From Zygnema cylindricum (lineage: Eukaryota > Streptophyta > Zygnematophyceae > Zygnematales > Zygnemataceae), in contig JBBHKE010002290.1 of the NCBI GenBank assembly GCA_037447655.1, positions 1 to 62,500 of the forward strand: a DNA stretch of 62,500 nucleotides, in the 5' to 3' direction. The notes under the pieces are model-generated. The model saw nothing but the letters and a program-made list of their open reading frames with translations, searched no databases and was not told the DNA's origin. Made by a program: the position numbers and the translations under genes. Shown piece by piece: positions 17,997-44,450 of this stretch (position 1 is its first letter; each line of letters starts with the position of its first letter).

Positions 17997-18023
17997 TAAA
18001 GAGTGACTAGAAAATAATGGGAG

Positions 18024-23089: not shown

Positions 23090-23161
23090 GAGAGGGTCAC
23101 TCTCGTCCAGATTTTTTACTTCTTCTGCACGGTCAGGCTGAACTGGAGTTTGGTTAGTAGA

Positions 23162-24606: not shown

Positions 24607-25662
24607 TGAAACTCTGAGACCTCGATAAGTCCTCAGACTGGACAGCTTCCAAGAAGCCTCTTGGATAACACGGACCCCTTTGTGTTTCAGCAAAAACAAC
24701 TACAACCCTGGCAGACAATAACTCTGACCAACTTCACCCTTGTGAAGGCAAGACTCCCCTGAGTCGATAGCAAAAAGAATCTCTGAATTTTCTCCCCTAA
24801 GCAGTAAGTTATGGAGGGTCAAAGTTGACCTTTTGTACAGAAGTTCTCTGGGAGAGAGGGTCCTATCTCCTAATTTTTCTAATTCCTATCTCTCTCACAA
24901 ACTCTATCTACTGATGTACGGAGCCAATCAGAATGCAGCTCCGTACACAAAAGTACATCTGTCGGTGGACTTTCTGTACGAACATCGTACGACATGGCCT
25001 AAATGTCGACACGTGGTATGTCTGGATTGGATCCCGTTATCCTTGGAGATGCTGCGATCCAATGTTATTCCGCCACGTGTCATCCGAAGTGGCGATGTCC
25101 ACAAACCGCCGAAATCCTCTTCCGCGATCTCGACGTTAATTCCGGCCGTCCGATTAAATTCATATTTAATCGTAGCCGTAATAAATACATGTGCGATATT
25201 CTTTTCTATAAAGAAACAAATGCGCGGTATTGATTTCTTATCCGTACCGCTATCCATACTTTTACGATTATGGATCTATGTCACCCGTAATCAGTTATAG
25301 TTAAATGAATTTTCCTACTCAATAAAAATTAATTAAATATCATACCCTATATTACGTAACATTCGATGAAGACTTAACGGCTAAGGCTACCGTCTACTGG
25401 CTGCTTGCCGGCCGGTAGGTACAAGAATCAAATCCTGTAGCCGGCACCATATCATTTTAGTGAATAAACCCCTAACTAATATATAATCCCGTAAACTTCT
25501 GGTTAGCCTAGGTAGCCATGGCTCTAGCTCCCTCTCTAATTTCTCAGTGACTGCGACAAGTTTGAGAGTTGGAGAGAGAAGTTAGAGGTAGACTGCCTCG
25601 GCTTCTTTCTATATTTCAATTTAGACCTAGAAAATACTTTAAATGGATCATTAATTTCTACA
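24607..25662 (-). mobile_element. Solo LTR inside element D, TSD atcat
   Basis: 1056-bp LTR, TGAAACTCTGAGACC...AATTTCTACA in window orientation. It is flanked by perfect duplications atcat at 24602-24606 and 25663-25667. It is the same family as the solo LTR at 44719-45765 and the C LTRs. It has a GTAC cluster (about 24910-24990), CACGTG at about 25010 and 25074, and a hairpin-capable tRNA-like module at 25373-25448. Confidence 0.94.
25373..25448 (+). other. tRNA-minihelix-like module in solo LTR
   Basis: A 7-bp stem TGCCGGC (25406-25412) pairs with GCCGGCA (25440-25446) around a T-arm-like hairpin with loop AATCAAAT. This resembles the acceptor plus T-arm half of a tRNA. The equivalent module in element G keeps pairing with a different 7-bp stem (GACGGAC/GTCCGTC), which suggests the structure is maintained. 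Confidence 0.5.
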
Positions 25663-26718
25663 ATCATCGGCATCCTCTCCCACGACATGTGTCGCCACAA
25701 ACGCCTTCTTTTTCCTTGCGGCCAGTTTTCCAATAGATTCCTCCATCAACCTCAATTCTGTCAATTTAGTGCACTCCGCCATGTAGTGTCGCGGCTTCTT
25801 ACAAAAATGGCAAAGCCCCTTCGGAGCCCTCGGTCTAGATCCGTCATGATTCCCTCTTCCTCCTCCACCAAAGTTCCCATAAGGTTTCTTGGAATCCTTA
25901 TCCCCCCAATTAGTACCAGCAGCCAATTCTTGAACACTCTTTCCTCCTCTCCCAATCTCAATTGTGCTTTCCCAAACCAAAATCATTCCCACAACGGCGT
26001 TCTAGATCCATTGATGATCTGACAAGTCCCGAACCCTGTTAACAATGTTTTCATAATCATCAGGGAGTTTCATCAACAAAGTATTCACCTTCTCTTTCTT
26101 GGTCTCCCTTTTTCTTGCACTCTCCAACTCCATAAATAACGCGGCCAAGTCATTACAAAAATCTAACATCTTTCCCCCATTGTACACATATACTTGTACC
26201 TTTTGATATACCAACTTCTGCTGTTGAATCGTACCACTCTTGTAAATGTTGACAAGAGCCTCCCACAACTCGTTTGCCTTGTCAACATGAAGATGAGGTG
26301 TAGCCACTGCCTGGGTGAGAAACCCGAGAATAAAATGGGTCGCCACGGTAATGTTGAAATCTTAGATTTCACTATCATTAGCCTCGGTTTTCTGAACATC
26401 TACTATCAGAACCGATCCATTAGGCATCAGTGTGAGTTTCTCTTTACCCTTTTCCTTCCCTATGTCCGACACGACGCTTTCTCCAACATCCTCTACCACC
26501 GCTGCCCTTGCAGATCCTCCGGTGAACCGAGATCCTCCAAACCCTAGTGGAAATCCCAATTTTGCAGATGGCCGACGCACACGACCACTCACAATGCCCC
26601 AAAGCCTTTTTTCAAACAATGTACCCCTCATCATAGTTTCCCAATAAATGAACCCTATTCCATTGAAAATGGGCACCCTAGAGGGTAGGCCCATAACCTG
26701 TAATTCTGTGACCTCCAT
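25663..26718 (-). pseudogene. Copia element D: gag
   Basis: The gag ATG at 26718 lies inside the 5' LTR, and the frame reads MEVTELQVMGLPSRVPIFNG across the LTR end and PBS. The core continues in 26346-26002 (LTQAVATPHLHVDKANELWEALV, MKLPDDYENIVNRV) after a stop near 26360. 25992-25668 ends with a complete zinc knuckle (CHFCKKPRHYMAEC). At least two stops interrupt it. The solo LTR lies just downstream. Confidence 0.88.
26683..26698 (-). other. Primer-binding site of element D, anticodon-arm initiator tRNA type
   Basis: Minus-strand GGTTATGGGCCTACCC starts at the first base after the 5' LTR (...GAATTACA). Its first 11 bases match the Drosophila copia PBS, which anneals to a cleaved 5' half of initiator tRNA-Met. 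It overlaps gag codons (QVMGLPS). Confidence 0.8.
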
Positions 26719-27648
26719 TGGTCCACAGAATGTTTAGCTTATATGAAGCCTCTAGGATAATATTTGCTATTTTGAATTTGGCAATGAATAAGTGCCACCC
26801 TGGCACGCAAAAACTCTGATTGACTACAGCCCTGTGTAGCATGGACTCCTCTGAGTCTGCAGCAAAAAGAATCATTGAATTTGCTCACCGGAGCATTAAG
26901 TTATGGCTGGCCAAAGATGGCCTATAAATAAAGAAGCACTCTAGGAGAGAGGCTGAATCCAAAAACTATTATAAGTCCTAAATAACCTCTCTAAGCGTAC
27001 TACTAGTGTACATATCCAATCAAATGACTGTAAGTTACAAGAAGGTACGGGTACCGCTGTACTTCTTGTACGGCCATAGTACGGCATGACCGCTCCGCTG
27101 ACGCGTGTCAGTTCCTGAACCGAAGTTGCTCCCTCCGTGATACCTGTTGTCTAATCATCCTTCGCCACGTGTCACCCGCCGACATATGCTCTGCAAACCG
27201 CCAAAAACCACTCCGGAATTCCGGCTCCTTCGGGAGCCATCGATCGCGAACGACTTTCAATTTCGTCCGTCGAAATTTGATGTCGTTTCGTGCAGTACTT
27301 CATTTCGTGCGGTCTCGCACGTTTCATGTTAGCTTCGTCCCGTAATATGTTTAAGTGAAGTATGCCGATGTGTTATATTATAAATAAATACGGAACCCAA
27401 TATATATATCGTTTCGTCAAGACCTAGCGGATAAGGTTGACGGCTACGCCGTACGACCAAAATCCAGAGGTCACTGGTTCAAGTCCTATTAGGGACTCCC
27501 TATGTTTTGCATTAAATTAAGGCTTCTGCTCTGTCTCCTTACCTGTATGAGACAGCCATGGCTGCCTGCAAGTCCTCAGTGACTACGACAAGAATGAGGG
27601 CTGCTGGAAGACCATAAAGAACAAGACTATAAAATACCTTTTTCAACA
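26699..27648 (-). mobile_element. 5' LTR of copia element D
   Basis: 950-bp partner of 20311-21259. The outer TSD is aaagc (27649-27653), after which A's gag continues (LRHLTQA, minus strand). It contains the LTR-borne gag start (26718), the GTAC cluster (about 27030-27085), CACGTG and the antisense tRNA-like module (27419-27498, B-box-like 27476-27486). Confidence 0.94.
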
Positions 27649-28046
27649 AAAGCTTGAGTGAGGTGCCTTAGAATGAAGTTCTTGGCAGCCATGTTTACGT
27701 CTTCCCACATTTGAGTATCGTTCTCCGCAGTCTTCAAGGCCCCCTCTCCCAGTGCCGTGGCAATAGGAGTGAGAGATGTCTCTTTCCCTTTCCCCATTTC
27801 AAACACATTGTTGTCCCCATCATCTGCCTCTTCCGCTAAAGTAGTAGCTGCTGTAGGAAACCTTACTCCTCCAAATCTTGGTGGAGTTCCCGAAGGTGGA
27901 CGTTTCGCGTGTCCACTGACAATGCCCCAGTATCGTTTTTCGCACAAAGCCTCCATCATCATAGCTTCCCAATAGATAAACCCACATCCATTGAAGGTGG
28001 GCACCCTAAAGGGTGGGCCCAGAACCTGCAATTCTGTGTCCTCCAT
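27649..28046 (-). pseudogene. Copia element A: gag N-terminal part
   Basis: The open frame from the LTR-borne ATG at 28046 reads MEDTELQVLGPPFRVPTFNG through the LTR end and PBS, then YWEAMMMEALCEKRYWGIVSG and on to MAAKNFILRHLTQA. There D is inserted. The gag sequence resumes on the far side of D at 20305 with LATPHLHIYK. No stop is present in this piece. Confidence 0.92.
28011..28026 (-). other. Primer-binding site of element A
   Basis: Minus-strand GGTTCTGGGCCCACCC immediately follows the 5' LTR. It differs by one base (A to C) from GGTTATGGGCCC, the anticodon-arm initiator tRNA-Met type. It is embedded in gag (QVLGPPF). Confidence 0.72.
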
Positions 28047-29028
28047 TGGCCTACAGAATTCAAAAAGCCTCTAGATAGTTTTAAGCTGACCCTTTTCAAG
28101 CCAGAACCACTACTGCCCAAAAAAGCAAACTGAAAATTTGACGGCACCCTTGTGCGGCCTAGACTCCCTTGAATCTGTAGCAAAAAGAATCACTGAAAAC
28201 GGCCAAACAACTAATTAATTATAAAGTGGCAAAGTTGCCAAGTTTATACAAAACTCTCTAAAGAAGAGAGGTATCTACCAAATTCTCTAAGTCCTAAACC
28301 CCTCTCACAACCCCTATCTACTAACGTATGAACCAATCAAATGACTGTAGGGTACTCAAAGGTACTAAGACCGATGTACTTTCTGTACAGCCTGTGCACG
28401 CCAAGGCCATTAAGTGGACGCGTGTTCACTATTAACTCGTTTTTCCGTTCTCCGGAATTCCGCAACCAAATGTTATCTCTCCACGTATTGCTAGGTCAAG
28501 CCACGTCCAAAAATCGCAAAGGTGACCATTCCGCCATTTCGGCAGCGATATGTGCCGTCGGATCACAAATCAACATTCAATATTAGCCGTAGACACAAAT
28601 GTCCGATTCATTAGTTTCGTGCGAGATAATGATCGCACTATATATCACTTCGTTCTATGTTCTTTCATACGTCATTTTGTTAATCCGATTTATGGTTAAA
28701 ACATTGTTTAAACAAATATAACACCTTATGTATTTCAATGAACTTCTACGACAAACTGGTAAGAGGCGACGGCTACGCCTCGCACTTCTAGTCAGAGGTT
28801 CGAGACCTGTCAGACTCAACCTTTTGTTGAGAGTTACATGAGTCAACTTTAGTCCTACCTGCTGAACTAGGACTGCCATGGCTCAACCACCCTCTTTATC
28901 CCTCAGTGCCTACAACAAGTATGGTTGGAAGAGAGAGGAGATGGAGGCAGGCTGTCCACCTTTTCTTTTCGTTTTGTACTGATCTATTTAGACCTAGAAA
29001 ATACCATATAAATCTAATAATTTGAACA
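28027..29028 (-). mobile_element. 5' LTR of copia element A
   Basis: 1002-bp LTR, TGCAATTCTG...ATTTGAACA in window orientation, pairing with 9156-10158. It is followed by gccac (A's mutated TSD) plus two more bases before B's LTR at 29036. The minus-strand PBS just inside (28011-28026) is GGTTCTGGGCCCACCC. The antisense tRNA-like module lies at about 28738-28817. Confidence 0.92.
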
Positions 29029-29035
29029 GCCACCA

Positions 29036-30080
29036 TGCAATTCTGTGTCCTCCATTGGACTACAGAATACAAGAAGCCTCTAGATAGTGTTTAACTAACC
29101 CACTTTAAGCCACGACCACTTCTGCCCAAGAAGGCAAACTGACAATTTGACTTCACCATTGTGCAACCTGGACTCACTTGAGTCCGTAGCAAAAAGAATT
29201 ACTGAAAACGGCCAACCAGCCGATAAGTTATAGGGTGGCAAAGATGCCAATTTATACAAACTCTCAGAGAGAGAGGACTATCTACCTAAATTTTCCTAAG
29301 TCCTTGTTTTTCCTAATTCCCTCTCACAACTCCTATCTACTGCCTGTACGAACCAATCACAAAACTGTATAGTACTAGAAAGTACTACTGCCGATGTACT
29401 TTCTGTACGGCCTCTGTACGACAAGGCCATTAAGTGGACGCGTGTCCACTTTCCACTCATCCGTACGTTCCTCGGAATTCCCGCGACCGAATGATGTCTT
29501 CCCACGTGGCGCCAGGTCATGCCACGTCACTAAATGCCAAAATGACCATTCCGGGGTTTCGGCGATAATGTGCGCCGTTAGATTTGACATGAAATTCAAT
29601 CTCGGCTGTAATAAATACTTGCGCGATATTTGTTTCGCTTTCGAAACAAAATGCGCGATATCTATTTCAAACAAGTACAGTACTTCGTATTTCGTAGAAC
29701 TGTATCTATGTGTGGCGTTGAGGGTTTTAGTTAAATGAATCTAGTACATTACAATAGTTTAAATACTAATGAAACCCTATATCTCCTAACGGACTTCTAC
29801 GACAGACTGGTTAGAGCTAACGGCTACGCCGCGCTCTGCTGGTCGGGGGTTCGAGTCCTGCCGGACTCAATCTTTTGTTGAGAGTGGCTTAAGCCACTCT
29901 TTAGTCCTTCTTATGGAGTTGAGGAAACCATGGCTCCATTGCTCTCTCTCTCTCTCTCCTTCAGTGACTACAACAAGTATGGGGGCGAGAGAGAGAGAAG
30001 AGATAGAGGCAGGCTGCCTACATTTTCTTTTCTAATAAATTTAGACCTAGAAAATATACTAAAAACTACTTATTTCAACA
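29036..30080 (-). mobile_element. 3' LTR of copia element B
   Basis: 1045-bp LTR, TGCAATTCTG...TTATTTCAACA, pairing with 34421-35459. It carries six GTACs within 29346-29419, a palindrome ATTTGTTTCG/CGAAACAAA (29628-29651), CCACGTGG (about 29500) and the antisense tRNA-like module (about 29800-29870, B-box-like 29848-29858). The left TSD copy is cacca (29031-29035), a one-base variant of cacta at 35460. Confidence 0.94.
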
Positions 30081-30093
30081 CTCCCCTTATTTT

Positions 30094-31809
30094 CTAGTCT
30101 AATTTTAATTTTTCTTTTAAGCCACATTTTTCCCTACAATATTTTAACTTTGGAGAGGGCACAGGTTTTGTCATCATGTCAGCCACCATTTCCTCATCAG
30201 ATCTATATAGTAGATTCACTATTTTATTCTCCACTTTTTCTCTTACAAAACTTAATCTTATGTCCATATGTTTAGCCTTAAAATGATGTTTTGGATTGGC
30301 TGCAATTGCTATGGCCGCTTGATTATCACAAAAAACTTCATGCACTCCCTCTTTCGTATATCCAAGTTCTTGCAGTAAGGACTTGACCCACATCAACTCT
30401 TTCACAGCAGAACAAGAGGCCATGTACTCAGCCTCCATAGTGGACTGAGCAACCACCTTTTGTTGCTTACTGCTCCTACCGCAAGCACCTTCCCCAACAT
30501 ACAACACATACCCAAAAGTGCATTGTCTGATAGGTGCGTCCCCATAACTGGCAACACTCCAAGTAGTGATGTCAGTGTGCTCCCCTCCCAAATGCAACCA
30601 TAACTCTCTAGTTTCCACCAGATATCTCATGACTCTCTTGGCTACCTCCCAATCCCTCTTCCTAGGATCATTAAGACTCCTACTGAGTACACCAAATGCC
30701 GCCGCTATGTCCGGCCTGGTACAATTCATAAAATAGATTAAGCTTCCTACGACCTGTCTATAAGGGATAGACTTCATGAACTCTCTCTCCTCTGGACTCA
30801 TCTGATCGTCTAAGATCATCACTCCTCCTTCTACACTCCCATCACTTCCTTTTTTCAAGTCCATGGGAGTGGTACAACTGTTAGCATTTTCCATCTGGAA
30901 TTTCTCAAGCATATTACCTATTGCTTCTTTCTGAGTAAGTCTGATAATCTTCTTCCCCCTATCTCTCTCCATTTGGATCCCCAAAATATATTTTGCCTCC
31001 CCTAAATCCTTCATATCAAATCTGCCCCTAAGATCTTTCTTTAGCTTATTGATATTCTCTAAAGACTTACTTAACACAAGCAGATCATCCACATAAATTG
31101 CAATAAAAATGACACCATTCTCATCTTCAAACATATAGATAGAATGGTCAGAGCTGATCCGGATGTATCCCAGATCGGTGAGAAACTCATCTAGTTTCTT
31201 ATTCCATTGTCGGGGAGCCTGTTTCAGTCCATATAAGGACTTTATGAGCCTGCACACTTTGCTCTCTTCTCCTTTTTCCACAAACCCCTGGGGTTGCCTC
31301 ATAAAAATTTCTTCCTCTAACTCACCATTAAGAAAAGCAGTTTTAATATCCATCTGGTGAATTTCCATGTCTTCCGCTGCGGCCAGACTGAGGAGAATCC
31401 TTACCGATAGGAACCGAACAACTGGAGCAAAGGTCTCCTCATAGTCAATCCCCTCTTTTTGGGTGAACCCTTTCGCTACCAATCGAGCCTTATACCTCTC
31501 AATTGTATTATATGGGTTCAGTTTTAGTTTAAATACCCATTTACATCCAATAGGTTTTCTGTCTGGAGGGGAATCCGCTAGTTCCCAAGTATTTGCTTCC
31601 ATGATAGAAGCCATCTCATCATTTATGGCTCTAATCCATCTTTCTTTCTCTGGACTATTCACTGCCTCTAAGTAAGATTGAGGCTCATCTGGGTGAGATA
31701 GCTTAGTTACCTTATGGGCAGCTTGTTTTTCCTGTATCCTTTTGCTGCTCCTCCTTCCTCCCTCAAACTCCGAAGCTGGAATGGGTGGAAGTCTTGGATT
31801 TCTTCTCAC
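30094..31809 (-). CDS. Copia element B: intact RT-RNase H open frame (571 codons)
   Basis: This is the longest uninterrupted retrotransposon frame in the window. From the N-terminus: linker RRSSKRIQEKQ, copia RT ([26 protein letters not shown] in split form, [87 protein letters not shown] with the catalytic aspartates). RNase H follows (TTWSVASYGDAP with D to V at one position, QSTMEAEYMASCSAVKEL, CDNQAAIAIAANPKHHF, KHMDIRLSF, ADMMTKPVPSPKL). The stop lies 13 bp from the LTR. In the living element it would be part of a single Gag-Pol polyprotein, so the start shown is only the limit of the open frame. It copies element RNA in cytoplasmic particles. Confidence 0.93.
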   Translation of the reverse strand: MRRNPRLPPIPASEFEGGRRSSKRIQEKQAAHKVTKLSHPDEPQSYLEAVNSPEKERWIRAINDEMASIMEANTWELADSPPDRKPIGCKWVFKLKLNPYNTIERYKARLVAKGFTQKEGIDYEETFAPVVRFLSVRILLSLAAAEDMEIHQMDIKTAFLNGELEEEIFMRQPQGFVEKGEESKVCRLIKSLYGLKQAPRQWNKKLDEFLTDLGYIRISSDHSIYMFEDENGVIFIAIYVDDLLVLSKSLENINKLKKDLRGRFDMKDLGEAKYILGIQMERDRGKKIIRLTQKEAIGNMLEKFQMENANSCTTPMDLKKGSDGSVEGGVMILDDQMSPEEREFMKSIPYRQVVGSLIYFMNCTRPDIAAAFGVLSRSLNDPRKRDWEVAKRVMRYLVETRELWLHLGGEHTDITTWSVASYGDAPIRQCTFGYVLYVGEGACGRSSKQQKVVAQSTMEAEYMASCSAVKELMWVKSLLQELGYTKEGVHEVFCDNQAAIAIAANPKHHFKAKHMDIRLSFVREKVENKIVNLLYRSDEEMVADMMTKPVPSPKLKYCREKCGLKEKLKLD

Positions 31810-33157
31810 TGTCTCATCGCTCCCCTGTCCATAAAAATTGTATCTTGTCCCGCTTCTTCTATCTCCTCGAAGTCCATAGGAGTATGTGAGGTTTCCGGTG
31901 AGTCTCTTGTATCTTCGATCTCCCCTGAATCTGTAATCACGGTTTCACTCATGTCTTTTTCGGGAACGACCAAGTTCTCCTCACTTTTGGACTCAAATCT
32001 GATTCTTATCTTCTTTGTAAATTGAAGGGGTCAAATGACTTCCCTTCATCCATGACAACTATGTGTTTGACCAGAATGATATCTTTCTTTGCTAAGTCAT
32101 AGACTCTATATCCCTTAACATCCTCATCATATCCCACAAAGTATCCAGGTTTTCCACTAGCATCTAGTTTCCAGTTTTTCCTATCCGTGTCAAGACTGTA
32201 AACTTGGCTAACAAATACTTTAAGGTGTGAGATATCTCGTTTCCTTCCAACCCATCTCTCATAAGGTGTCATTCCCTTTACAGCTGAGGTAAGGACTCTG
32301 TTCTTAATGTAGTTGGCAGAGTTCATTGCTTTTGCCCAAAATCTCTTTCCTATTTTCTTGTCTGCCAACATACTGCGCTCACTATCTCCTAGTGTGTGAT
32401 TCAACCTCTCAGCTACCCCATTTTATTCCGGGTTATATGGTATAGTTTTCTGGTGTTGCACTCCCCCATCTCTTAAATATTCCTCAAACTCGTTAGAGGT
32501 ATATTCCCCCCCATTATCACTCCTTATCCTCTTAATGGGGGTTTCATGCAACTTCTCACTCCAAGCTTGATATTCTTTGAAGTAAGTTGATGCTTCAGAC
32601 TTTGTTTTTAGAAAGTAGACTCTGGAGTATCTAGACCAGTCATCAGTTATTGTCATCATAAACCTCTTTCCTCCAACCGAAGGTACTTTTGCAGGTCCCC
32701 AAATATCTGTGTGGACCAAATCTAACACTTTCTCACCTCTATATGTGGCGGCTTTAGGAAAGGGAAGTCTGTGAGCCTTACCTTCAGCACAACCACTACA
32801 ATCATCCATCATTTCATTATCCTCAAACTGAATGCCATCTACTACCCCAAGCTTTTTCATTTCCCTCAACCTATCAAATTGCACATGCCCCAACCGTTTA
32901 TGCCAAATCATCACCTTAGGAACACCAACATAATAAACATTCTTCTTTTCATTACTCAGGTTAAGCCTAAACATTCCTTGGCTACCCTTATCTGCTATGA
33001 AGTAAACTTCATTCCCATACTTAGCTGTAAAGACTCCCTTTCTGGTGAAAGTATCAAACTCTTTGTCATCTAACACATACGTAGAGACAAGATTTTTTCT
33101 CAGCTGAGGAATGTAAAGTACATCTGAGAATGTAAGTATAGAAGTCTTACCCTCCAC
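31810..33157 (-). pseudogene. Copia element B: integrase
   Basis: 33157-32423 is open and encodes the end of protease, the integrase zinc domain (WHKRLGHVQFDRL...DDCSGCAEGK, all four HHCC ligands present) and the catalytic core (VHTDIWGPAKVPSVGGKRF, RSDNGGEYTSNEF, NPE). A TAA replaces the QNG codons near 32421, then 32404-32006 continues (RLNHTLGDSERSMLADKK, NYIKNRVLTSA, KVFVSQVYS, GYDEDVKGYRVYDL). A frameshift near 32030 separates it from the acidic spacer. This is close to intact: one stop and one frameshift. Confidence 0.92.
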
Positions 33158-33453
33158 TCAGACTTTCATATCTACTGATCCCACTAGATCTGTAGTAACC
33201 ACTCTCCCATCCCCATACTGTATCCCTACAGTAGGAATCTTTCTTAGCTTAGTGAAGAGTTCTTTATCACAACACATATGCATGGATGCACCTGAGTCGA
33301 TGATCCATCCTTTCGTGGAGCTTCCCAAATTAGTCCAAGGGCACACTTCTGCCTCCGAGGGATCTCGTTCTCCTCCAGACTCTCGTCAAGAAGAAGCTCC
33401 CCATCCTCCTTAGAGGACTCATCCTCAGTTTCTCCTGACACTTTTGTAACCAC
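33158..33453 (-). pseudogene. Copia element B: protease region
   Basis: 33346-33158 contains retropepsin GWIIDSGASMHMC and YGDGRVVTTDLVGSVDMKV, ending in a TGA before VEGKTSILTF. The preceding acidic stretch (EDESSKEDGELLLDESLEE, 33453 onward) is in a different frame because of a one-base change near 33325. The retropepsin DSGA active-site motif is preserved. Confidence 0.88.
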
Positions 33454-34440
33454 AAGTGCCTTTTTCTTCCCTCCGGAAGAACCTCCTCCACGGTTCTCTT
33501 GGAGCCTCAGCTCTGATAGCTTGACACAATTTGCAATAAAGTGTCCAGGCTTTTTGCAATAATGACAAAGACCCTTTGGGGGCCTCTGTCCCCCAGAAAG
33601 ATCTCTTTCCCCTCTATAAGGTTTCTTCAGGTCCTACCCCCATCCGTCCTTTCCTGCTGCTAGAGCTTGAATGCTCTTTCCTCCTCTCCTAATCTCCATT
33701 GTGTTTTCCTGCACAAGTATCATCCTGACTACTGTGTTCCATTTCCATGAACGATCACGCATTCCCTGTACTCGGTACACTATGTTTTCGAACTCATCTG
33801 GTAATTTCATGATAAGGGTGTTAACTTTCATTTTCATTGTACCTGTCCACCCGGCACTTTCCATTTCCATATACAAACAAGAAAGATCATTACAGTAATC
33901 TAACATCTTTCCTCCTTTATAAGTATAACTGAATAGCTTTTGCTCAACCAACTGGAGCTCCTGAATAGTTTCAGCTCTATAAATCTCCACTAAACTCTCC
34001 CACAACTCCTCGGCCTTGTAAATGTGAAGATGAGGAGTGGCCAAACCTTGAGTGAGGTGCCTCAGAATGAAGTTCTTGGCAGCCATGTTTACATCCTCCC
34101 ACATTTGAGTATCGTTCTCCACGGTCTTCAAAGTCGCCGCCCATGATACTGTGGCAATTGGAGTGAGGGGTGTCTCCTTCCCTTTTTCCTTTTCGGACAC
34201 ACTACTGTCCCCATCATCTGCCTCCTTTGCTGAGGCAGCCGTTGTTGCAGAAAATCTTACTCCCCCAAATCCTGGTGGAGTTCCCGAAGGTGGACGTTTC
34301 ACTTGTCCACTGACGATACCCCAGTATCGTTTTTCACACAAAGCTCCCATCATCATGGCTTCCTAATACATGAACCCAGATCCATTGAAGGTGGGCACCC
34401 TAGAGGGTGGGCCCATAACCTTCAATTTTGTGTCCTCCAT
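33454..34440 (-). pseudogene. Copia element B: gag
   Basis: The ATG at 34440 lies inside the 5' LTR, and gag reads across the LTR end and PBS. A TAG replaces the Trp codon of the conserved YWEAM near 34366. 34356-33634 is then open for 240 codons (LRHLTQGLATPHLHIYKAEELWESLVEIYRAE in split pieces, MKLPDEFENIVYRV). After another stop near 33632 comes a zinc knuckle CHYCKKPGHFIANC (about 33570-33525). Two point stops are the only obvious damage in gag. Confidence 0.9.
34405..34420 (-). other. Primer-binding site of element B
   Basis: Minus-strand GGTTATGGGCCCACCC directly abuts the LTR. The first 12 bases are identical to the Drosophila copia PBS (anticodon arm of initiator tRNA-Met). Confidence 0.82.
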
Positions 34441-35459
34441 TGCACTTCAGAATACAAGAAGCCTCTAGATAGTGTTTAACTAACCCACTTTAAGCCACGA
34501 CCACTTCTACCCAAGAACGCAAACTGACAATTTGACTGCACCCTTGTGCAGCCTAGACTCGCGTGAGTCGGTAGCAAAAAGAATCACTGAAAACGGCCAC
34601 CCAGCTGATACGTTATAGGGTGGCAAAGATGCCAATTTATACAAACTCTCACAGAGAGAGGACTATCTACCTAAATTTTCCTAAATCCCTGTTTTTCCTA
34701 ATTCCCTCTCACAGCTCCTATCTACTGCCTGTACGAACCAATCACAAAACTGTATAGTACTAGAAAGTACTACTGCCGATGTACTTTCTGTACGGCCTCT
34801 GTACGACAAGGCCATTAAGTGGACGCGTGTCCACTTTCAACTCGTCCGTACGTTCCTCGAAATTCCCGCGACCGAATGATGTCTTCCGACGTGGCGCCAG
34901 GTCATGCCACGTCACTAAATGCCAAAATGACCATTCCGGGATTTCAGCGATGATGTGCGCCGTTAGATTTGACGCGAAATTCAATCTCGGCCGTAATAAA
35001 TACTTACGCGATATTTGTTTCGCTGTCGAAACAAAATGCGCGATATCCATTTCAAACAAGTACAGTACTTCGTATTTTATAGAACTGTATCTATGCGTGG
35101 CGTTAAGAGTTTCAGTTAAATGAATCTAGTACATTACAATAGTTTAAATAGTAATGAAACCCTATATCTCCTAACGGACTTCTACGACAGACTGGTTAGA
35201 GCTAACGGCTACGCCGCGCTCTGCCGGTCGGGGGTTCGAGTCCTGCTGGACTCAATCTTTTGTTGAGAGTGGCTTAAGCCACTCTTTAGTCCTTCCTATG
35301 GAGTTGAGGCAACCATGGCTCCATTGCTCTCTCTCTCTCTCCTTCAGTGACTACAACAAGTATGGGAGCGAGAAAGAAGAGATAGAGGCAGGCTGCCTAC
35401 ATTTTCTTTTCTAATAAATTTAGACCTAGAAAATATACTAAAAACTACTTATTTCAACA
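34421..35459 (-). mobile_element. 5' LTR of copia element B
   Basis: 1039-bp LTR, starting TTCAATTTTG (TG drifted to TT) and ending TATTTCAACA, followed by TSD cacta (35460-35464) within the gypsy RT coding sequence. It has the antisense tRNA-like module (about 35180-35254) and a GTAC cluster (about 34729-34806). It is similar throughout to 29036-30080. Confidence 0.94.
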
Positions 35460-36867
35460 CACTACATATTCCTCACTTGTGAGTTTGCCCTGAGTTAGGA
35501 TGGCTGTAATATCGGACTTACGAAAGTTTGTCTTTAGGCAAAATGGTAACTTATGATTTGGTGGGCGAAGAATAGGAGCAATGGACACTACGTCCTTTAA
35601 TCCTTGAAATGCTTCGATCTGAGAGGGTCCCCACGTGAACAGGACTGATTTCTTCATGAGTCCATTTAGTGGAGATGCAAGTGTGCTAAAACTAGGAACA
35701 AACCTCCGATAATAATTAGCTAACCCTAGGAATGCAATTAGGCTAGTCAAATCAGTTGGGACCGGTAGTTTACTGATCGCTTCCACCTTGATTTCTAGTA
35801 CAGTAATTCCTTCGGATGAGATAAAGTGCCGAAGGTATGGTACACCTTCAGCCCCGAAGTGCATTTGGCAAGATGACATTTGAGAGCTACCTTTTTTAAT
35901 TCTTTCAATACCCACTTTATATGCACTGCATGTTCCTCTATAGAGGTTGAAGCGATGATAAGATTGTCGATATAGCAACGGGCAAACTTACATCCCCCAA
36001 AGACTGAGTCCATGACTTTGTGGAATACTGCCGGTGCATTTTTCAGTCCAAAGGGCATAACCGCCCATTCCCAACGTCCGTCACTACCCCAAAATGCAGT
36101 CTTGTGTTGATCTTTTTCCTCTATTTCGATTTGATTAAATCCCTGTCGCATATCTTGGATGCTGAAATATTTAGCTCCTCCAACATGATCAAAAATATCC
36201 TATACCAACGGCATTGGATGTCGATCCTGGATTGTACGTGAATTCAGTTCTCGATAGTCCCCACATGGCATTAGATGTCGGTCATGGATTGTACGTTAAT
36301 TCAGTTTTCGATAGCCCCCACACATGCGACGTTCTTTAAAATTCCCCTCCGCATCTTTTTTAAGAGGCTTGACGGTAGGCGCCACAAAGGTGGAATCAGA
36401 GCTATAAATCAGATCTGCCTCTTCTAATTTTGGGTATCGTTTGTCTACAGATTCCCATTAAGTTTCTGATAGACGATGCTTGGGCTTAAAAATGGGTCGG
36501 TCATCTTTCAGGTCAATAGACATTCTGTAAGTGGTGTGTCGACCTCAGTCTTTCATGGAGGAAACGAACGCGTCTACGTTTCAATTTATGACTTTATCTA
36601 AAAGTTCGTGTTCTGGTTTTGTTAGTCCCTTTCCGAATTTCCATGTCGGTTTTTCAAGTGTGTTGATGATCATGGCTTCCATGGCCTGTGCAAATGCTAG
36701 ATGCTCATCCACTATTAACAAGTGTCCCAACTCATATTCGATTGGGAGCTGATGCAAACATCTTATTGCATGATGTCAACTTTTAGATAGAAATGCTATT
36801 GTCCAGTGTGGTGATGCCAGTACCGCTACCTAAAATCTAGCAGCTGTGTATGTTGGGAGAGACCAAC
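35460..36867 (-). pseudogene. Ty3/gypsy reverse transcriptase
   Basis: Minus-strand gypsy RT between the methyltransferase and the A/B insertion. Recognisable segments are KPEHELLDKVI and DDRPIFKPKHRLSE upstream, CGDYRELNSRTIQDRHPMP (tandemly duplicated, in-frame 57-bp repeat at about 36210-36323), FDHVGGAKYFSIQDMRQGFNQIEI, HKTAFWG, VMPFGLKNAPAVF and YIDN (35964-35975), where the second catalytic Asp of YIDD has become Asn. The thumb follows (LGLANYYRRFVPSFS, PLNGLMKK), ending EEYVV at the B LTR. The frame resumes at 9155 (YASRS...). Several stops and frameshifts; not functional. Confidence 0.9.
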
Positions 36868-37131
36868 TCATGTGACTCGGTTCCAAAAAATCATAAATAG
36901 TACGATCTTTGTCAGACTTAGCAAAAAAAGGGAAAAGGGAGAGCTGGAATGTTGTACCCCGAAGAGAAGGCGAGGACTTAGATGCTGTGTGTTTAAATGT
37001 TGTATACCCCCCCCCCCTACTGATTGTGACAGATGGTTTTGTGCGTATTGACCGGCTGCGAACCCCATGCCCAAGACAAATGACACTTATTAGGGATCAA
37101 TGCCACGACCAAGTAAGGTGCAGCGTTGCCT

Positions 37132-38427
37132 CTAGGTGAGTCTCGGAGCAGCAGTGGTGCCTGAGATTAAATGTAAAAGATGTTCTCGCTCTGCATCAGT
37201 AGGTTCTTCTAAGATACCTGTATGGGTATTATGCAGCATGCCCGATGCGTTATGTGAATATGCGTGAGAGTGCGGATATGCGACTAGTTTGGGGAGTGCA
37301 CGTAGTGGCTGGCTAGGGATGTTAAGACAAAAAGTAGGGGGATAGTCTGTCCAGATACATGTATGGTCCTTATAAAATGGAAGAAGTGCATCATGAATGG
37401 CAAGGTTAGGTGGTCGGAGAGCAAGGTTAGCTTCTCGGAGCCGACCCATGTCCACCAGGTTAGTCCACTGGGAACGAACCTGGTGGGCCAGCAAACCGTG
37501 GCGTGCGAAATTGATGATCAGAGGTGGTCCAATTAATGATTCAATGCGTTTATAATTTGCGAGAACCGTAGGTCAAAGGTCATTATGGGCTGCGACGTTA
37601 ACGAATACGTATCCGAAAGGACGGTTCAATGTTTGGAAGAAGTGGATAAGATGCACCACCTTGAAAAACAACTTAGTACATGGATCTGCGAGACCTAAAC
37701 CTTTCCCGGACCTAGAGATACCTTGACATTCCCATCCAGCAAAAAAAAGATCGATTGGTTCTAATTCCAACAAATGGTGATTTCGTATTAGGCGAATATC
37801 CAATGGTAGAGCCGAATGCATGTCGTGAAAAGCAGACTTGGGCGAAAGGTATGGATATTGTTCATGCAAGATTTGACAGTGGTGCACCGGAGCGTTTCTA
37901 GCCAAAGGATCATTATCTACTGAATAATACTGTTTAATAAGAAGCCCGTTCCGCAGGCAAGAGAGAAGTGAAGTAACAATTCCTACGAAAAGGTCTAAGA
38001 TAACGAGACCATTTGGGTGAGGTTGTAAACTGACCGATTTCCATTTAATGGGCAAGAACCTGGAGGGATCCGTCGTAATGGAGGGTGGATCCGGAATACT
38101 AGATAAGGGAATTGGTATAGTAAATTTGTATAGCCGGTCAAAATCTGAAGAGTGAATGATAAATCCGGGTGTACTTAATAATTTGGGTAACCCCGGGGAA
38201 TCTGGTGAGATTTCGTCCGTTGTTAGGGATTCAAGGATGTTTGCACTCATGCCAACTGCGGCATAGTCTTGCACGATCGGTGCCGAATGGGCCGTAGTAG
38301 GCATGGGTTGCCTGGCCGAGATAAGAGGTAAGCAAATTTTGCGTTTCAAAAAGTTTTTCGGTCGGTAATAAAATGTTTGATCATGCATATCACCCCCTCG
38401 AAAATAACGTCTTGATGGACCAAGCAT
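37132..38427 (-). pseudogene. Cytosine-5 DNA methyltransferase domain carried by the gypsy element
   Basis: A frame of about 432 codons with one in-frame TGA (near 37573). Counting from 38427: residues 1-140 are an N-terminal region of unknown role. Motif I is LDLFVGI (144-150) with SVDNDPLAR (169-177). Motif IV is GWECQGIS (231-238), keeping the catalytic Cys (234) but with Glu for the usual Pro before it. Motif VI is YVFVNVAA (273-280), with Val where ENV has its Glu. After the stop the frame continues with AHQVRSQWTNL (motif VIII-like) and a C-terminal segment EEPTDAEREHLL..SGTTAAP (motif IX/X-like). It lies between the protease and RT of the same element, on the same strand. C5 methyltransferases in retrotransposons have been reported in charophyte algae and dinoflagellates. 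Activity of this copy is unlikely. Confidence 0.85.
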
Positions 38428-39290
38428 TCATAATCACTACATTTGGTGACCAAGGAGTGAGCATGTATTTCTGCGAAATCGGTCACTGACTGACTTTGGA
38501 ACTGAAAACATATTGGTTTTATCGTAATAACGAGGACCAGTTCTATGGTACTTGCGGAAGTCAACAAGCATGTGGTGGTGGGTTGTAGCTTATCTGCAGT
38601 AAGACCTATTTTGATTGCAAAATCGGACCCGAGGATGATCGGTTTTGCGTCTATATCTATGAGAGGTAATGTCGGAGCAACCCCATTAACTGTGAAAACG
38701 CCTAATTTGTTATCCAGGAAACTGATGTGAGGAATGAGGCTAGAACGCTCTTCAAGAGTAATAGCTTGAAGAGAGAGAGCATTACGATGGTTTTGAACAG
38801 CCTGTAACACAACAACTTGCAGGGTTAAATCTATCGTTTTACCATTGTTATCCGGATCGGGAAGCATGGTGGACAGGATTGATAAACGTTCTTTGACCTT
38901 ATAAGTGTCTTGTATGCTTCTCTCCAAGATTGTTAATTCTTCGGCAATGATGCTAGAGGCCGTTTCCGACATTGGTGGGAGTGGTTCTTTAGCGAATGAT
39001 AATGGAATACGGGTGTTAATGGATTTTGACTCGCATTTTATGATCGAGAGTCCCTTTAAAGTGAGCTGCCCGATGTTGAACAGTGGACTCCCGAAGCGAT
39101 TGACCCGTGAAAGAAGGCATATGGACCATAGTTCGGGCCATTCTAGTTGATTGCGGCTTGACCTGCGCCATAAGTACGGCAAACTGCTCCTTCATCATGG
39201 CCGCCACGGTAGCCTGCATCTGGACTTTCTCCCTGTCCCTCCTGCTGATTTTCAGAGGGTTGTCTTTCTCTACCCCTTTAGGTGGAGTGA
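38346..39290 (-). pseudogene. Ty3/gypsy protease region
   Basis: 39182-38346 is an open minus-strand stretch. Its C-terminal half resembles a gypsy retropepsin: PLIDIDAKPIILGSDFAIKIGL (split here as LIDIDAKP and ILGSDFAIKIG). The position expected to be D-S/T-G-A reads D-I-D-A, an active-site Gly to Asp change. Upstream is a helical spacer (EELTILERSIQDTYKVKERL). 39294-39016 is a basic linker that follows gag (NPLKISRRDREKVQMQATVAAMM) in an overlapping frame. The frame overlaps the methyltransferase frame by about 80 bp, so either a frameshift mutation or a designed frame change lies here. Confidence 0.75.
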
Positions 39291-39778
39291 CCAATTTCGC
39301 CGAGCGAGCACGTATACCGCCGTTTTTGATTTGATTTTGATAAATGAAATCGGGATTTTTAATATGACATTGATGTACTTAATGACCTGTTTGATTGTAA
39401 TGATTACACGTGGCAATCATATACAGACAGCCGCGTGCGTTGTGACCACTTTTACCACACTGGAAACAGATACGCACCCCAGGGGTCGTTGGCAATGTTC
39501 CCATGGCTGGAGCTCTTGGAGGTCTCGGATTGGGCCATCACTTGCGCGGGTTAAGATTCAGATTCGGAAATTCTCTAGGAGAAGGCTTAGGTCGCTCATG
39601 GGTGTCCCACCTGCTAGTTTGCATTTCTTACCTTATGGCATATTCGACAGCCTTTTCGAAGGTAAATTTGAGACCATATGACTCATTAAAATGGCTTTGA
39701 ATGAAACGTCGAGATTGGGTGGGAAATTGCCCCACAAATTTCTGAACTGCCTGTGCGTCTGACATGAGGTGAAGTAGT
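39291..39778 (-). pseudogene. Ty3/gypsy gag, C-terminal half with zinc knuckle
   Basis: On the minus strand, gag capsid-like sequence (HLMSDAQAVQKFVGQFPTQS, FIQSHFNESYGLKF, EKAVEYAIR) is followed by a proline-rich linker and a complete CCHC knuckle CFQCGKSGHNARGC (about 39467-39426). A second imperfect one follows (CNHYNQTGH..HQC). Stops interrupt the frame. The right edge is G's TSD gtagt (39774-39778). The reading continues at 44038 (RLETLREAL|LHLMSD). Confidence 0.85.
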
Positions 39779-40518
39779 TGAAACTCTGAGACCTCCATTG
39801 GCCCTCAGAGTATGCAGATCCAAAAGAAGCTAATCTAGATAGTGCCGACTCCAAGTTGATATAAACCCAAGTGACTGACCCCTTGACAGTCAGAACCCCA
39901 ATATAGATTCACCCCTGTGAAATAACACTTTCTGTGTGCTCAGTTCCACCACAGAATGCAAAGTTAGAATATGAGATTTTGACACATTCACCCACTTTGA
40001 CTTTCCCTTAGAAATGCAGCCACCCTGGCAGACAAAAACTCTGACCGACTACACTCTTGTGTAGCCTAGACTCCCCTGAGTCCGCAGCAAAAAGAATCAC
40101 TGAAAATGGTCAAGTAAATTGATAGTTATGGCTGGCCAAAGTTTGCCATTTATACAGAGTGCTCTCTGGGAGAGGCAGCTGCCTACCCAAAATTTTCGAA
40201 GTCCTATTCCCTCTCTAAAACTCTATCTACTGAAGTACGGCACCAATCAAATTACTGTGTCGTACCGAAAAGTACAGGTGCCGGTGTACTCTATGTTCAA
40301 CCATTGTACGACATTGCCAAAATGTCGACACGTGTCAAATCAGGATTAGTTCCTGTAATCTCTTGAATTCCCATGGTCTAATGTTATCACGCCACGTGTC
40401 ATTTGACGTGGCAAAGACCGTAAAACGCCAAAAATGTCTTTTCCGTGATCGCGGCGCCTATCGTGGCCGTCCGATCAAAACCGGCTATAATCCTAGCCGT
40501 TGAAATTCGACGCGCGGT

Positions 40519-40542
40519 ATTTGTTTCGCTATCGAAACAAAT
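40519..40542. repeat. Perfect palindrome in G's LTR
   Basis: ATTTGTTTCG - CTAT - CGAAACAAAT: 10-bp arms and a 4-base loop, flanked on both sides by GCGCGGTAT-type sequence. It is conserved at 43597-43620 (other G LTR) and, with small changes, in the B, C and solo LTRs. Confidence 0.85.
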
Positions 40543-40689
40543 GCGCGGTATATGTTTTGTCCACATACCGTACTTCGTACTAAATCAAACTGTATCTATG
40601 TACTAAGTATCTATTAGCCGTTAAACGGATTAATCTACATATGTCGATTTATATATTTATCAAACCCTATATATCGTAATATCTGTCCT

Positions 40690-40767
40690 AGACTTAACGG
40701 CTAAAGCTAACGGCTAATGCGGATTGACGGACGTCAGGTACCAGGATCAATTCCTGGGTCCGTCAAC
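40690..40767 (+). other. tRNA-minihelix-like module in G's 3' LTR, antisense to the element
   Basis: GACGGAC (40726-40732) pairs with GTCCGTC (40758-40764). Inside, CCAGG (40741-40745) pairs with CCTGG (40753-40757) around a 7-base loop ATCAATT. Together they match the geometry of an acceptor stem plus T-arm. A-box-like TTAACGGCTAAAGC lies upstream. It is conserved in the 5' LTR (about 43770-43845). Confidence 0.5.
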
Positions 40768-41025
40768 TAACTTTTGGTAAGTCTACCTAATTTACCCGCT
40801 GTCTTCTCTAGAGAGCCTAGGCAGCCATGGCTCTAGCTCCCTATCCAGCCTTCAGTGACTACAACAAGTGTGGGGGCTTGGATAGGGGAGTTTAGAGGCA
40901 GACCGCCTCAGCTCTTTTCCTATCCTAATAAAGACCTAGAAAATATTCAAATATCAACACTCCCCTTATTTTCTAGTCTTTTTTCTTTCAACTTCCACAA
41001 ACAAGTTAACAAACACCCCCTCCCC

Positions 41026-41074
41026 TTTTTTTTTTTTTTTTTTTCTTTTCTTTTTCTTTTTTTCTTTTTTTTTC
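41026..41074. repeat. Poly-T / T-rich tract
   Basis: Run of T with occasional C, just inside G's 3' end. It encodes the artefactual poly-Lys tail of the 40966-41931 frame and may be a slippage-prone sequence. Confidence 0.9.
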
Positions 41075-42844
41075 ATAAAACTTAAGTATTTAACAAAGTG
41101 CATTAAATGAACTGAAATGATAATTGCATCACACATTTTATTTAACATCCCATTTTTCATAAATCCGAGCAAAGATTTTATCCACTTCATCACTCTTTCA
41201 TCCACACACAAACCGATTTCCCTCTTGTGATCTAAACAGCCAGCCCCATTTCCAATCTGCGACATACACCGAGATGCTAACCCTTTTACAGGCACATCTT
41301 CACAAGTGACATCACACCAAGTAGTGATGTCAAATCCATCCACCTCCAAATATTCCCAAAAAACACTAGTCCCCACTAAGTTCCTCATAAGATCTACATC
41401 TTCCGTACTCATATATTTATCCATGATAAGTACCCTATTTTCTGAACTTCCCTCACTCTCTCCCATGGAATTCTTTCCACTATCACTTTCTATTTTAATT
41501 CCCAATAAATATTTTTTCTCCCCTAAACCTTTAGTCAAATATTTCTCTTCTCCCCTATCCTTTAAAACCCCCTCTAGAATTAATTCTCCCCTCTCCTCGG
41601 AATCCGTTGAAGTCTCCCTTTCCGACCATTTTTCTGTTTCCAAAATATCTATGAAACTATCCTCAATATTTTGAACTCCCTCAAGTATCTCCTCTCTCTT
41701 TACTTCCCTTATACCTCCAAAAGCACACTGTTGCTTTCGTGGAATTTCTGTGTGCTTTTCTCTCTTCCCCATACTACTAATCCCGAAAAGCTCTACAATA
41801 TCTTCATCCACTTTCTCCTCTTCCCCTTCTTCCTCCTCATCCACATTCCAACTTCTAAGTTTTTCCAAACAAGGGCATTCCTCCATATAATGACCCTCTT
41901 CCCTACAAAAGAAGCAAACCCCCTTTTTCAAAGCTCCACTTTCTTTTCCTCTCCCTCTCTTTCCACCAAAGTTCCGATAAGGTTTACATTTGTCTTTCTT
42001 TCTCTCATCACGCTTCCGCTCGTCACTGCCGTTCCTCTCATGACGCTTCCGCCAATCACCACCAGCTGAAAATGCATTGACCTGTCCTTTCCCCTACGAA
42101 GCTCCAAAGTGCTTTCCTTCACAAGAATTATCCCCATGGTAAAGCTCCATGTCCATGAGGAGCCATCCATTGCCTGCATACGACAAATGATGTTTTCGTA
42201 CTCATCTGGGAGTTTCATAATTAGTGTATTAATCTTACTCTCCTCAGATTCTACATATCCCGCACTAGTAAGCTCAACGTATAACGCAACAATATCATTG
42301 CAAAACTCTATAATGCTACCCGCCTTTATAAACGTAGGCATCTATTTCATGTTTTACTAATTGCTGCCTCTGAATAGTCTCACTCTTATAAATCTGAATT
42401 AGTGCTTTTTATATCTTTGAAGCTTTGGTTAGACTTAAAAGAGTGATAGCTATCGACTTTGACACATATCTAAGTATGAGATGTTTTGCTATAGTGTTTT
42501 TGTATTCCCATATTTTTGTGTCATTTTCTTCAGTTTTAATCCCTACATGTGGTACCATAGTTGAGAGCCTAGCTCCTCTCACCATAGGTGTCCCATTTTC
42601 CTTCTCCCCTATTTTTCTATTCACGGAAAGATTTTTCCCTTCACCTTCCGTTGCATCTGAGCTCCGGTTGATATTCTGGGCAGCCTCACATGAATCTCCA
42701 TAGTAAGCTCCTCCAAAGCCATGTGGCGAACATCTCACTTGTCCTGAAACAATTCCCCATAAGTGCTTCTCGAAAAGCAATCCCTCCATTGTAAACGCCC
42801 AATACGTGAAGCCTGTTCCATCAAACATAGGCACCCTAGATGGT

Positions 42845-42856
42845 GAGCCCATAACT
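42845..42856 (-). other. Primer-binding site of element G
   Basis: AGTTATGGGCTC on the minus strand directly abuts the 5' LTR. It is a two-mismatch form of the anticodon-arm initiator tRNA-Met PBS. If initiator tRNA carries GAGCCCATAACC, as most eukaryotes do, the C-to-T change would restore pairing. Confidence 0.62.
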
Positions 42857-44037
42857 TGAAACTTTGAGACCTCCATTGGCCCTCAGAGTATGCAGATCCA
42901 AAAGAAGCTAATCTAGATAGTGCCGACTCCAAGTTGATATAAACCCAAGTGACTGACCCCTTGACAGTTGGAACCCCAATATAGATTCACCCCTGTGAAA
43001 TAACACTTTCTGTGTGCTCAGTTCCACCACAGAATGCAAAGTTAGAATATGAGATTTGGACACATTCACCCACTTTGACTTTCCCTTAGAAATGCAGCCA
43101 CCCTGGCAGACAAAAACTCTGACCGACTACACTCTTGTGTAGCCTGGACTCCCCTGAGTCCGCAGCAAAAAGAATCACTGAAAATGGTCAAGTAAATTGA
43201 TAGTTATGGCTGGCCAAAGTTTGCCATTTATACAGAGTGCTCTCTGGGAGAGGCAGCTGCCTACCCAAAATTTTCGAAGTCCTATTCCCTCTCTAAAACT
43301 CTATCTACTGAAGTACGGCACCAATCAAATTACTGTGTCGTACCGAAAAGTACAGGTGCCGGTGTACTCTATGTTCAACCATTGTACGACATTGCCAAAA
43401 TGTCGACACGTGTCGAATCAGGATTAGTTCCTGTAATCTCTTGAATTCCCGTGGTCCAATGTTACCACGCCACGTGTCATCTAACGTGGCAAAGACCGTA
43501 AAACGCCAAAAATGTCTTTTCCGTGATCGCGGCGCCTATTGTCGCCGTCCGATCAAAACCGGCTATAATCCTAGCCGCTGAAATTCGACGCGCGGTATTT
43601 GTTTCGCTATCGAAACAAATGCGCGGTATATGTTTTGTCCACATACCGTACTTCTTACTAAATTAAACTGTATCTATGTACTAAGTATCTATTAGCCGTT
43701 AAACGGATTAATCTACATATGACGATTTATATATTTATCAAACCCTATATATCGTAATATCTGTCCTAGACTTAACGGCTAGAGCTAACGGCTAATGCGG
43801 ATTGACGGACGGCAGGTACCAGGATCAATTCCTGGGTCCGTCAACTAACTTTTGGTAAGTCTACCTAATTTACCCCTTGTCTTCTCTAGAGAGCCTAGGC
43901 AGCCATGGCTCTAGCTCCGTATCCAGCCTTCAGTGACTACAACAAGTGTGGGGGCTTGGATAGGGGAGTTTAGAGGCAGACCGCCTCAGCTCTTTTTCTA
44001 TCCTAATATAGACCTAGAAAATATTCAAATATCAACA
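42857..44037 (-). mobile_element. 5' LTR of non-autonomous copia element G
   Basis: 1181-bp partner of 39779-40959, followed by TSD gtagt (44038-44042) and gypsy gag. The minus-strand PBS inside (42845-42856) reads AGTTATGGGCTC, two changes from the canonical GGTTATGGGCCC. The gag ATG (42876) is inside the LTR. The palindrome is at 43597-43620. Confidence 0.95.
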
Positions 44038-44450
44038 GTAGTGCTTCACGTAATGTTTCCAAACGTGGTCGCATTGCCGAGGCGATTTAACCTAGTCGCA
44101 GTTCAAAATTCATTAGTTCTTTCACTTGATCGTGATTGTGCATTAGGTACACTTCCTTTATTAACCGAAAACAAATGATACACGATCCCTTAGAGGGACC
44201 AACATTGCAGGGCGAGCCGGAACAGCTGCACGAGGCGCAACAGCGAATTGATGAGGAACCTCAAGTATTTCAGGTGAAATTTTGTTAATTGCAGAGTCAA
44301 AAACTGCGGGTACTGCGGCTTAGAAAAGAACTTCTAGGCTATTAGTTATGGCTAAAGATCTAGAATATGCGGGTGCCATTGCTATCATAATACAAATTGA
44401 CGCATATTTGCATGTATATAAAAATAGGGCAGATCCCTTAAAGTAGGGCC
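44038..44450 (-). pseudogene. Ty3/gypsy gag, N-terminal part
   Basis: On the minus strand, from 44450: MAMAPAYSRSLAITNSLEVLF, a stop, then AVFDSAINKISPEILEVPHQF and, after a frame change, IASAMRPRLETLREAL, which joins the 39773 piece across element G. The identification rests on that join and on position upstream of the zinc knuckle. The fragment ends at the 3' LTR of E. The missing gag start and 5' LTR are predicted to lie left of the window. Confidence 0.7.

Follow-up and report, generated by a model that had tools for sequence, protein, structure and literature searches.

Gypsy retrotransposons that carry a DNA methyltransferase (DNMT) of the Dnmt3 type are already known from Klebsormidium. 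KnitGypsy-Dnmt3, a gypsy long terminal repeat (LTR) element of the charophyte Klebsormidium nitens, holds such a DNMT within its Pol polyprotein and is reported to evolve under purifying selection, with Ka/Ks < 0.2 (de Mendoza et al. 2018, PMC5890265). The same paper describes SymbioDIRS-Dnmt3 of dinoflagellates, whose enzyme methylates CG sites in yeast and for which methylation of the element's own cDNA was proposed. DNMT3 enzymes embedded in streptophyte retrotransposons have been described elsewhere, together with a ChloroDNMT class (PMC12344493), and transposons with a DNA methylase have been reported from green algae but are said to be missing in land plants (PMC6338049). A survey of 121 angiosperm genomes found 15 extra domains in gypsy elements, with no DNMT among those named in the available text (PMC9289625). 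Here, we describe an element of this kind in a 62,500-nucleotide stretch of the Zygnema cylindricum genome (assembly GCA_037447655.1, contig JBBHKE010002290.1, positions 1 to 62,500, forward strand), hereafter the window. The original prediction, made from these letters alone, had cited a charophyte precedent, and KnitGypsy-Dnmt3 bears this out. Taking all parts of the reading together, we consider it highly probable that the window holds an inactive member of a Ty3/gypsy LTR element present in many copies, with a DNMT3-like cytosine-5 methyltransferase (C5-MTase, below MTase) between protease (PR) and reverse transcriptase (RT) and a PHD finger after integrase (INT), and that working copies most likely methylate newly made cDNA.

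The methyltransferase domain and its element

On the minus strand of the window, the frame 38427-37132 is open save for one TGA (37573-37575) and closes at a TAG (37132-37134). Its translation is as originally predicted, and PF00145 matches the first part of the frame at E 1.6e-5 with 25 bits, above the cut-off of 22. This match is more than chance, because a relative exists in the protein collection (P0001; E 1.3e-67, 42% identity, 71% of the query covered) and because a family profile of 121 relatives, from which both the window and P0001 were left out, scored 101 bits on one half and 104.5 on the other and found nothing in 50 shuffles of the translated frames. The frame had also been taken as the extent of the enzyme. 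An MTase is indeed present, but homology to such enzymes spans about 38004 to about 37045, past the end of the frame: motif X lies at 37096-37110, beyond the TAG, and two further stops stand at 37087-37092.

The motif strings are LDLFVGI (I), GWECQ (IV), VNVA (VI), AHQVRSQWTNL (VIII) and GRGID (X), and their order in the alignment is unpermuted. A sequence search of PDB matched 43 distinct sequences, of which the top 29 were DNMT3A, 3B or 3C (E 8.4e-11 or better). M.HhaI followed at 3.5e-5 and then 4onj at 7.4e-4, which is listed as a DNA methyltransferase and which we take to be a plant DRM. The fold was approached through an AlphaFold2 model of a relative, P0006, rather than of the window copy itself; the MTase part of this model has a predicted local distance difference test (pLDDT) score above 90 except in its first 10 residues. 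The best MTase matches of the P0006 model in Foldseek were DNMT3A and 3B, with template modelling (TM) scores by target of 0.74-0.82 on single-domain chains, while its top matches overall were integrases, due to the other half of P0006. By sequence and predicted fold, the domain is nearest to DNMT3A/3B/3C.

Judged from its residues, the window MTase is dead, as originally predicted. Motif VI reads Val-Asn instead of Glu-Asn, and the loss of this Glu had rightly been called damage: the window is the sole exception among 123 family rows (122 proteins and the window). Motif VIII reads Gln-x-Arg instead of Arg-x-Arg, a second loss that stood in the predicted translation and was not flagged there, and the domain is crossed by four stops. 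Motif IV keeps its Cys and has Glu where the canonical motif has Pro-Cys. This Glu had likewise been read as a sign of death, a reading that the family contradicts, as described below.

The element itself is split. The region 44.1-35.5 kb carries gag, PR, RT and one half of RNase H (RH), whose other half lies with INT and the PHD finger at 9.16-7.3 kb (Table 1). RNase H resumes in frame at 9157, 26 kb away, across a nest of copia elements. When the short flanks are joined over this site, one frame runs through RNase H, and the same is true of gag across a second insertion, copia B, which has a perfect 5-bp target repeat, GTAGT. Where RNase H is interrupted, only four of five bases agree between the flanking repeats, so this junction rests mainly on profile and frame. 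We read the two parts as one element because the RNase H profile stops at position 58 and continues from 58 to 100, with the frame passing through the empty site. With the pieces joined, and with the interval from RNase H to H2C2 in the window free of any MTase, the order is gag-PR-MTase-RT-RH-INT-PHD, in agreement with the original prediction. No LTRs were found for the window gypsy copy, and the window frames scanned gave no Pfam rve match in the integrase core region. The copy is old, and the divergence of the LTRs of the copia elements in or beside it agrees: their identity is 95% in copia A, 98% in copia B and about 87% in the pair at 9159 and 28030.

Sister copies, a second lineage and a wider family

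Intact copies of the window's element exist in the host genome. A search of 352.8 Mb in 2,689 contigs with the MTase DNA returned 41 matches, namely the window, 39 further places (81-86% identity) and a small fragment next to one of the latter; with 40 of 312 candidates scored, there are at least 39 further copies. We examined the 20 best-scoring of the 39. Downstream (3′) of the MTase, RT was found on the same strand in 17 of the 20, INT in 14 and PHD in 10, which, for MTase-bearing copies, speaks against an MTase that lies in a separate unit. The MTase domain is a single open frame in five of the 20 (covering the 348-position profile from 1 to 338 or 340), and PF00145 reaches 45.1 bits in one copy. 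Upstream of the MTase, a sub-threshold PF00098 match was seen in one copy and a sub-threshold PF13650 match in genomic copies. One copy is flanked by direct LTRs of 931 bp that are 100% identical, so the lineage has been mobile very recently. Direct repeats longer than 250 bp and more than 5 kb apart occur in three of the 20 stretches as cut (88, 84 and 80% identity, the 88% pair over 683 bp). An apparently shared 5′ homology border at base 833 of copy L009 was dropped, since the upstream sequence is common to other copies and only L009 is cut there.

Pattern matching could read motif IV in 13 of the 20, and all 13 have Glu; motif VI keeps its Glu in 15 of 16 readable copies, and motif VIII keeps both Arg in nine of 16. 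In the other seven (within L009-L028), an Arg of the Arg-x-Arg motif has been replaced, the substitutes being C, H, Q, G and S. Of these, C, H and Q are the outcome expected from deamination of methylated CpG in CGN codons, as judged from residues rather than codons.

The MTase also belongs to a wider family. With the P0002 MTase as protein query, 209 proteins matched at E <= 0.01; the best 120 of these 209, P0002 included, together with P0001 and P0003, form a set of 122. This set is silent on relatives without an MTase, because its members were picked by MTase and length. Those listed include gypsy polyproteins of two green algae, Haematococcus lacustris and Monoraphidium neglectum, which the source records label ‘hypothetical protein’ or ‘Reverse transcriptase’, and many from unnamed contigs. 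In 106 of the 122, the MTase has RH before it and H2C2/INT after it; a PHD finger follows it in 105, and RT lies 3′ of it in none. P0001 carries a protease tail and the MTase in one frame. Across 86 proteins, mean pairwise identity is 0.48 for the MTase, 0.46 for RT and 0.56 for RH and INT, so the MTase is as well conserved as RT. No confirmed relative emerged from three pattern scans of viral contigs (2, 19 and 69 matches) or from one of genome contigs (38 matches).

The residue before the catalytic Cys varies over the 123 rows: Glu in 85, Pro in 26, Ser in six, Ala in three and Asp in three. Around it, conservation is nearly complete, with the motif IV Cys in 123 of 123 rows, the motif VI Glu in 122 and the two motif VIII Arg in 120 and 123. 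Cys, Glu, Asn, Arg and Arg are all present in 83 of the 85 rows with Glu (P0065 and the window being the exceptions) and in 25 of the 26 with Pro. Because 83 of 85 such rows keep the other catalytic residues, the motif IV Glu is not a mark of decay, and on this comparison it is a trait of the family. In six pairs from neighbouring parts of the tree that differ in Pro versus Glu, none of the other columns changed every time (at best in five of the six). We name no active-site partner of the exchange, as the columns enriched overall are confounded by a large Pro clade.

The host genome also holds a second MTase-bearing gypsy lineage, of the canonical GWPCQ type. At the one locus followed, the order is PR(weak)-MTase-RT-RH-INT, with no PHD match in 7.5 kb. 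In the genome as a whole, PF00145 was found at 123 scored places out of 782 candidates, all above cut-off and whether or not borne by retrotransposons; these counts are lower bounds, and the window's own copy is absent from the 123. A single genome thus holds more than 100 such places. Four high-scoring ones outside the window's subfamily belong to the same MTase family and all read GWPCQ, with the usual Pro. They are no gauge of the genome's share of Pro versus Glu, because PF00145 scoring favours such copies.

In a tree of 45 rows, P0001 and the window are joined with support of 100/100. A tree of 46 rows that includes host copies splits in two with support of 100/99, separating the host's two lineages and P0001 from 36 algal and metagenome rows; its bootstrap had not settled and many inner branches are weak. 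Where context is known, the split tracks the slot of the MTase in pol, PR/RT on one side and RH/INT on the other. The PR/RT side holds the host lineages, and P0001 shows the PR side only. Both Pro and Glu occur in both clades, so the exchange is recurrent; the tree shows eight changes, a count to be taken loosely. A root placed with a DNMT3A fragment gave a branch of eight changes per column and was not used to order Glu and Pro.

Several further observations concern individual family members. P0107, a protein of M. neglectum, has a natural GWEC motif, and P0032 a natural GWPC motif. A Tudor-like PF21743 match occurs in the P0107 and P0035 elements, in P0107 below cut-off and after the PHD finger; PHD and Tudor-like domains might form a two-part histone reader there. 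P0074 is filed under a bacterial metagenome-assembled genome (Minisyncoccia) and most likely reflects eukaryotic contamination of the bin. A precomputed G-patch (PF01585) is present in P0006, P0030, P0046, P0047, P0058 and P0093, a domain also found in plant gypsy elements (PMC9289625).

Within the window, a 2.7-kb segment made of the gypsy RH-INT-PHD piece and a copia LTR is repeated with unchanged orientation at 2661-5405 and 7393-10138 (96% identity). A large inverted and rearranged duplication relates 1-7396 to 44451-53761 in pieces of about 83-93% identity; it contains poly-His-like repeats and, on the plus strand at 51596-51685, a partial PHD finger. Scans of the window for Rfam families (at the gathering cut-off) and for tRNAs found nothing.

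Table 1. Positions in the window of the gypsy copy and the copia elements that interrupt it, with related loci
Feature	Position	Strand	Evidence
gag, upstream part, right of copia B	44043..44120	-	same frame across copia B empty site; limits approximate, without profile match
copia B in gag (not part of gypsy)	39779..44037	-	LTRs 98% alike, pair 39778-40959 / 42856-44037; GTAGT on both sides
gag zinc knuckle CFQCGKSGHNARGC	39427..39468	-	read directly in translation
Tail of retropepsin-like protease joined to MTase, frames broken	38250..38528	-	tblastn with P0001 residues 1-91, 31% identity, E 3.6e-5
DNMT3-like C5-MTase domain	37045..38004	-	4 stops; PF00145, family profile, alignments
Reverse transcriptase, several broken frames	35798..36544	-	PF00078 E 3e-18 and 5.3e-22; blastp pieces 39-60% identity
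RNase H, first half	35460..35987	-	PF17919 profile positions 1-58
copia nest inside RNase H (not part of gypsy)	9157..35459	.	LTR pairs, flanks, frame continuity
copia A, right-hand member of the nest in RNase H	29038-35459		
RNase H, second half	8940..9157	-	PF17919 positions 58-100; PF17917 E 6e-20
Integrase zinc-binding domain H2C2	8418..8567	-	PF17921 E 1.4e-11
Integrase core, broken frames	7872..8400	-	family INT profile 61.6, 22.8 and 20.4 bits; blastp 50-55% identity
PHD finger 3′ of integrase	7325..7447	-	PF00628 23.7 bits (cut-off 24); family PHD profile E 3.4e-13
Second copy, 96%, of RH-INT-PHD piece 7393-9158	2661..4426	-	self-comparison
Second-lineage loci (host genome)	L034 (G000:C1374:25000-32500) and L030-L033		

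Proposed function of the methyltransferase and competing explanations

Sequence and analogy suggest how catalysis, substrate, timing and benefit of the MTase could fit together. In working copies, the enzyme would be made within Gag-Pol and then be released or kept near RT in the particle, its slot in pol placing it beside RT. As proposed for SymbioDIRS-Dnmt3, cytosines of the element's new cDNA, or of the RNA/cDNA hybrid, could then be methylated before integration. The PHD finger probably steers integrase to a histone mark via H3 tails, by analogy with the chromodomain of chromoviruses, which directs integration. A broader picture can be offered only tentatively, as we would not yet back it over its negation: a large and old DNMT3-like branch may have become a gypsy pol domain in two slots (PR/RT and RH/INT), repeatedly exchanging Pro for Glu while staying catalytic as a class of C5-MTases whose active site is altered, methylating the element's own nucleic acid and in many cases accompanied by a PHD reader.

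Some results weigh against the reading of a gypsy element whose working copies methylate their cDNA. The motif IV proline has been called invariant, and OsDRM3, which has the Cys without the Pro, was predicted to be inactive (PMC2965745). The gypsy DNMT of Klebsormidium gave no methylation in yeast, a result that its authors call inconclusive (PMC5890265). In the host genome, three of the 20 copies (L015, L018 and L024) have no RT, INT or PHD within 4-6 kb downstream, the protease matches of genomic copies are all below cut-off, and no 5-bp target repeat was found at the one copy examined for it, that with identical LTRs. The ratio of non-synonymous to synonymous substitution in the MTase (NG86 dN/dS), 0.17-0.42 over 10 pairs of the five open-frame copies, counts for the reading, with the reservation that picking copies for open frames biases the ratio downwards and that the two members of one pair hardly differ.

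The alternative that survives best is an active enzyme with an RNA substrate, such as the element RNA, a primer tRNA or an RNA/DNA hybrid, in place of double-stranded DNA. Other C5-MTases without the proline (fungal Dnmt2 with PSCQ, PACQ and PCCQ being listed too) come from a family of tRNA methyltransferases (PMC5372726), and the authors of PMC5890265 raised an RNA substrate for a DNMT borne by a LINE. The domain is nonetheless nearest to DNMT3A/3B/3C, which methylate DNA, and the presence of Pro and Glu types in both clades argues against a Glu-linked switch of substrate, which leaves this alternative unlikely, if still worth keeping in mind.

We give somewhat less credence to the idea that the MTase fold was kept for binding rather than catalysis, as a pseudo-enzyme that binds S-adenosylmethionine (SAM) or nucleic acid or that aids methylation by host or element in the manner of DNMT3L and DRM3. 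The exchange of Pro for Glu in 85 of 123 rows would suit such a role, as would the lack of Pro-Cys in DRM3 and Dnmt3L (PMC2965745). A pseudo-enzyme would be expected to lose its Cys, its motif VI Glu and its second motif VIII Arg, all of which the family keeps at the counts given above, and the Schizosaccharomyces pombe Dnmt2 is reported active with Ser for Pro (PMC5372726, which also notes Ala and Cys variants in fungi and, in the available text, does not mention Glu). Finally, chance capture of a host DNMT3 piece by a single gypsy copy, which the window alone could not rule out, is refuted by the 39 other copies, by RT downstream in 17 of 20, by a second lineage with the same order and by the single frame of protease tail and MTase in P0001, and deserves practically no weight.

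If an MTase-bearing gypsy element whose working copies methylate their cDNA is the right reading, then DNMT-carrying gypsy elements are no Klebsormidium oddity and form a lineage spread broadly through green algae and related genomes. The GWEC and GWPC types within one genome offer a natural comparison for the role of the ‘invariant’ proline. A methyl writer and a histone-reader finger in one mobile element would make the reasons for transposon DNA methylation testable.

Comparison with known systems

Our literature search, which left most subscription papers uncovered, turned up nothing that deals with the algal family, with gypsy elements bearing both an MTase and a PHD finger, or with a motif IV Glu. 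Among described systems, SymbioDIRS-Dnmt3 likewise has a Dnmt3-type DNMT inside a retrotransposon Pol. However, it is a DIRS element with a tyrosine recombinase, whereas the window element is a gypsy with a DDE integrase. An orchid gypsy with an AlkB m6A demethylase (PMC9289625) is similar as a gypsy that gained a nucleic-acid modification enzyme, though that enzyme is unrelated to DNMTs. KnitGypsy-Dnmt3 shares both the Dnmt3-type DNMT within a gypsy Pol and the charophyte host; its legend speaks of DIRS-like repeats, in contrast to the direct 931-bp LTRs found here. This comparison is by description only: the available text of PMC5890265 gives neither the slot of the DNMT in Pol nor the motif IV residue and mentions neither PHD fingers nor chlorophytes, and no K. 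nitens sequence is named among the protein matches listed.

The gypsy polyproteins of H. lacustris, M. neglectum and metagenomes share a homologous MTase, a gypsy RT-RH-INT and a PHD finger after INT with the window element. They differ in the position of the MTase, which lies between RH and INT in these elements and between PR and RT in the window. As far as our search reached, three features appear to be new relative to the systems described so far: the slot of the MTase in pol combined with a PHD finger; the breadth in green algae and metagenomes, where a large family places the MTase between RH and INT and a sister clade has it between PR and RT; and the recurrent replacement of the motif IV Pro by Glu in active sites that are complete in other respects.
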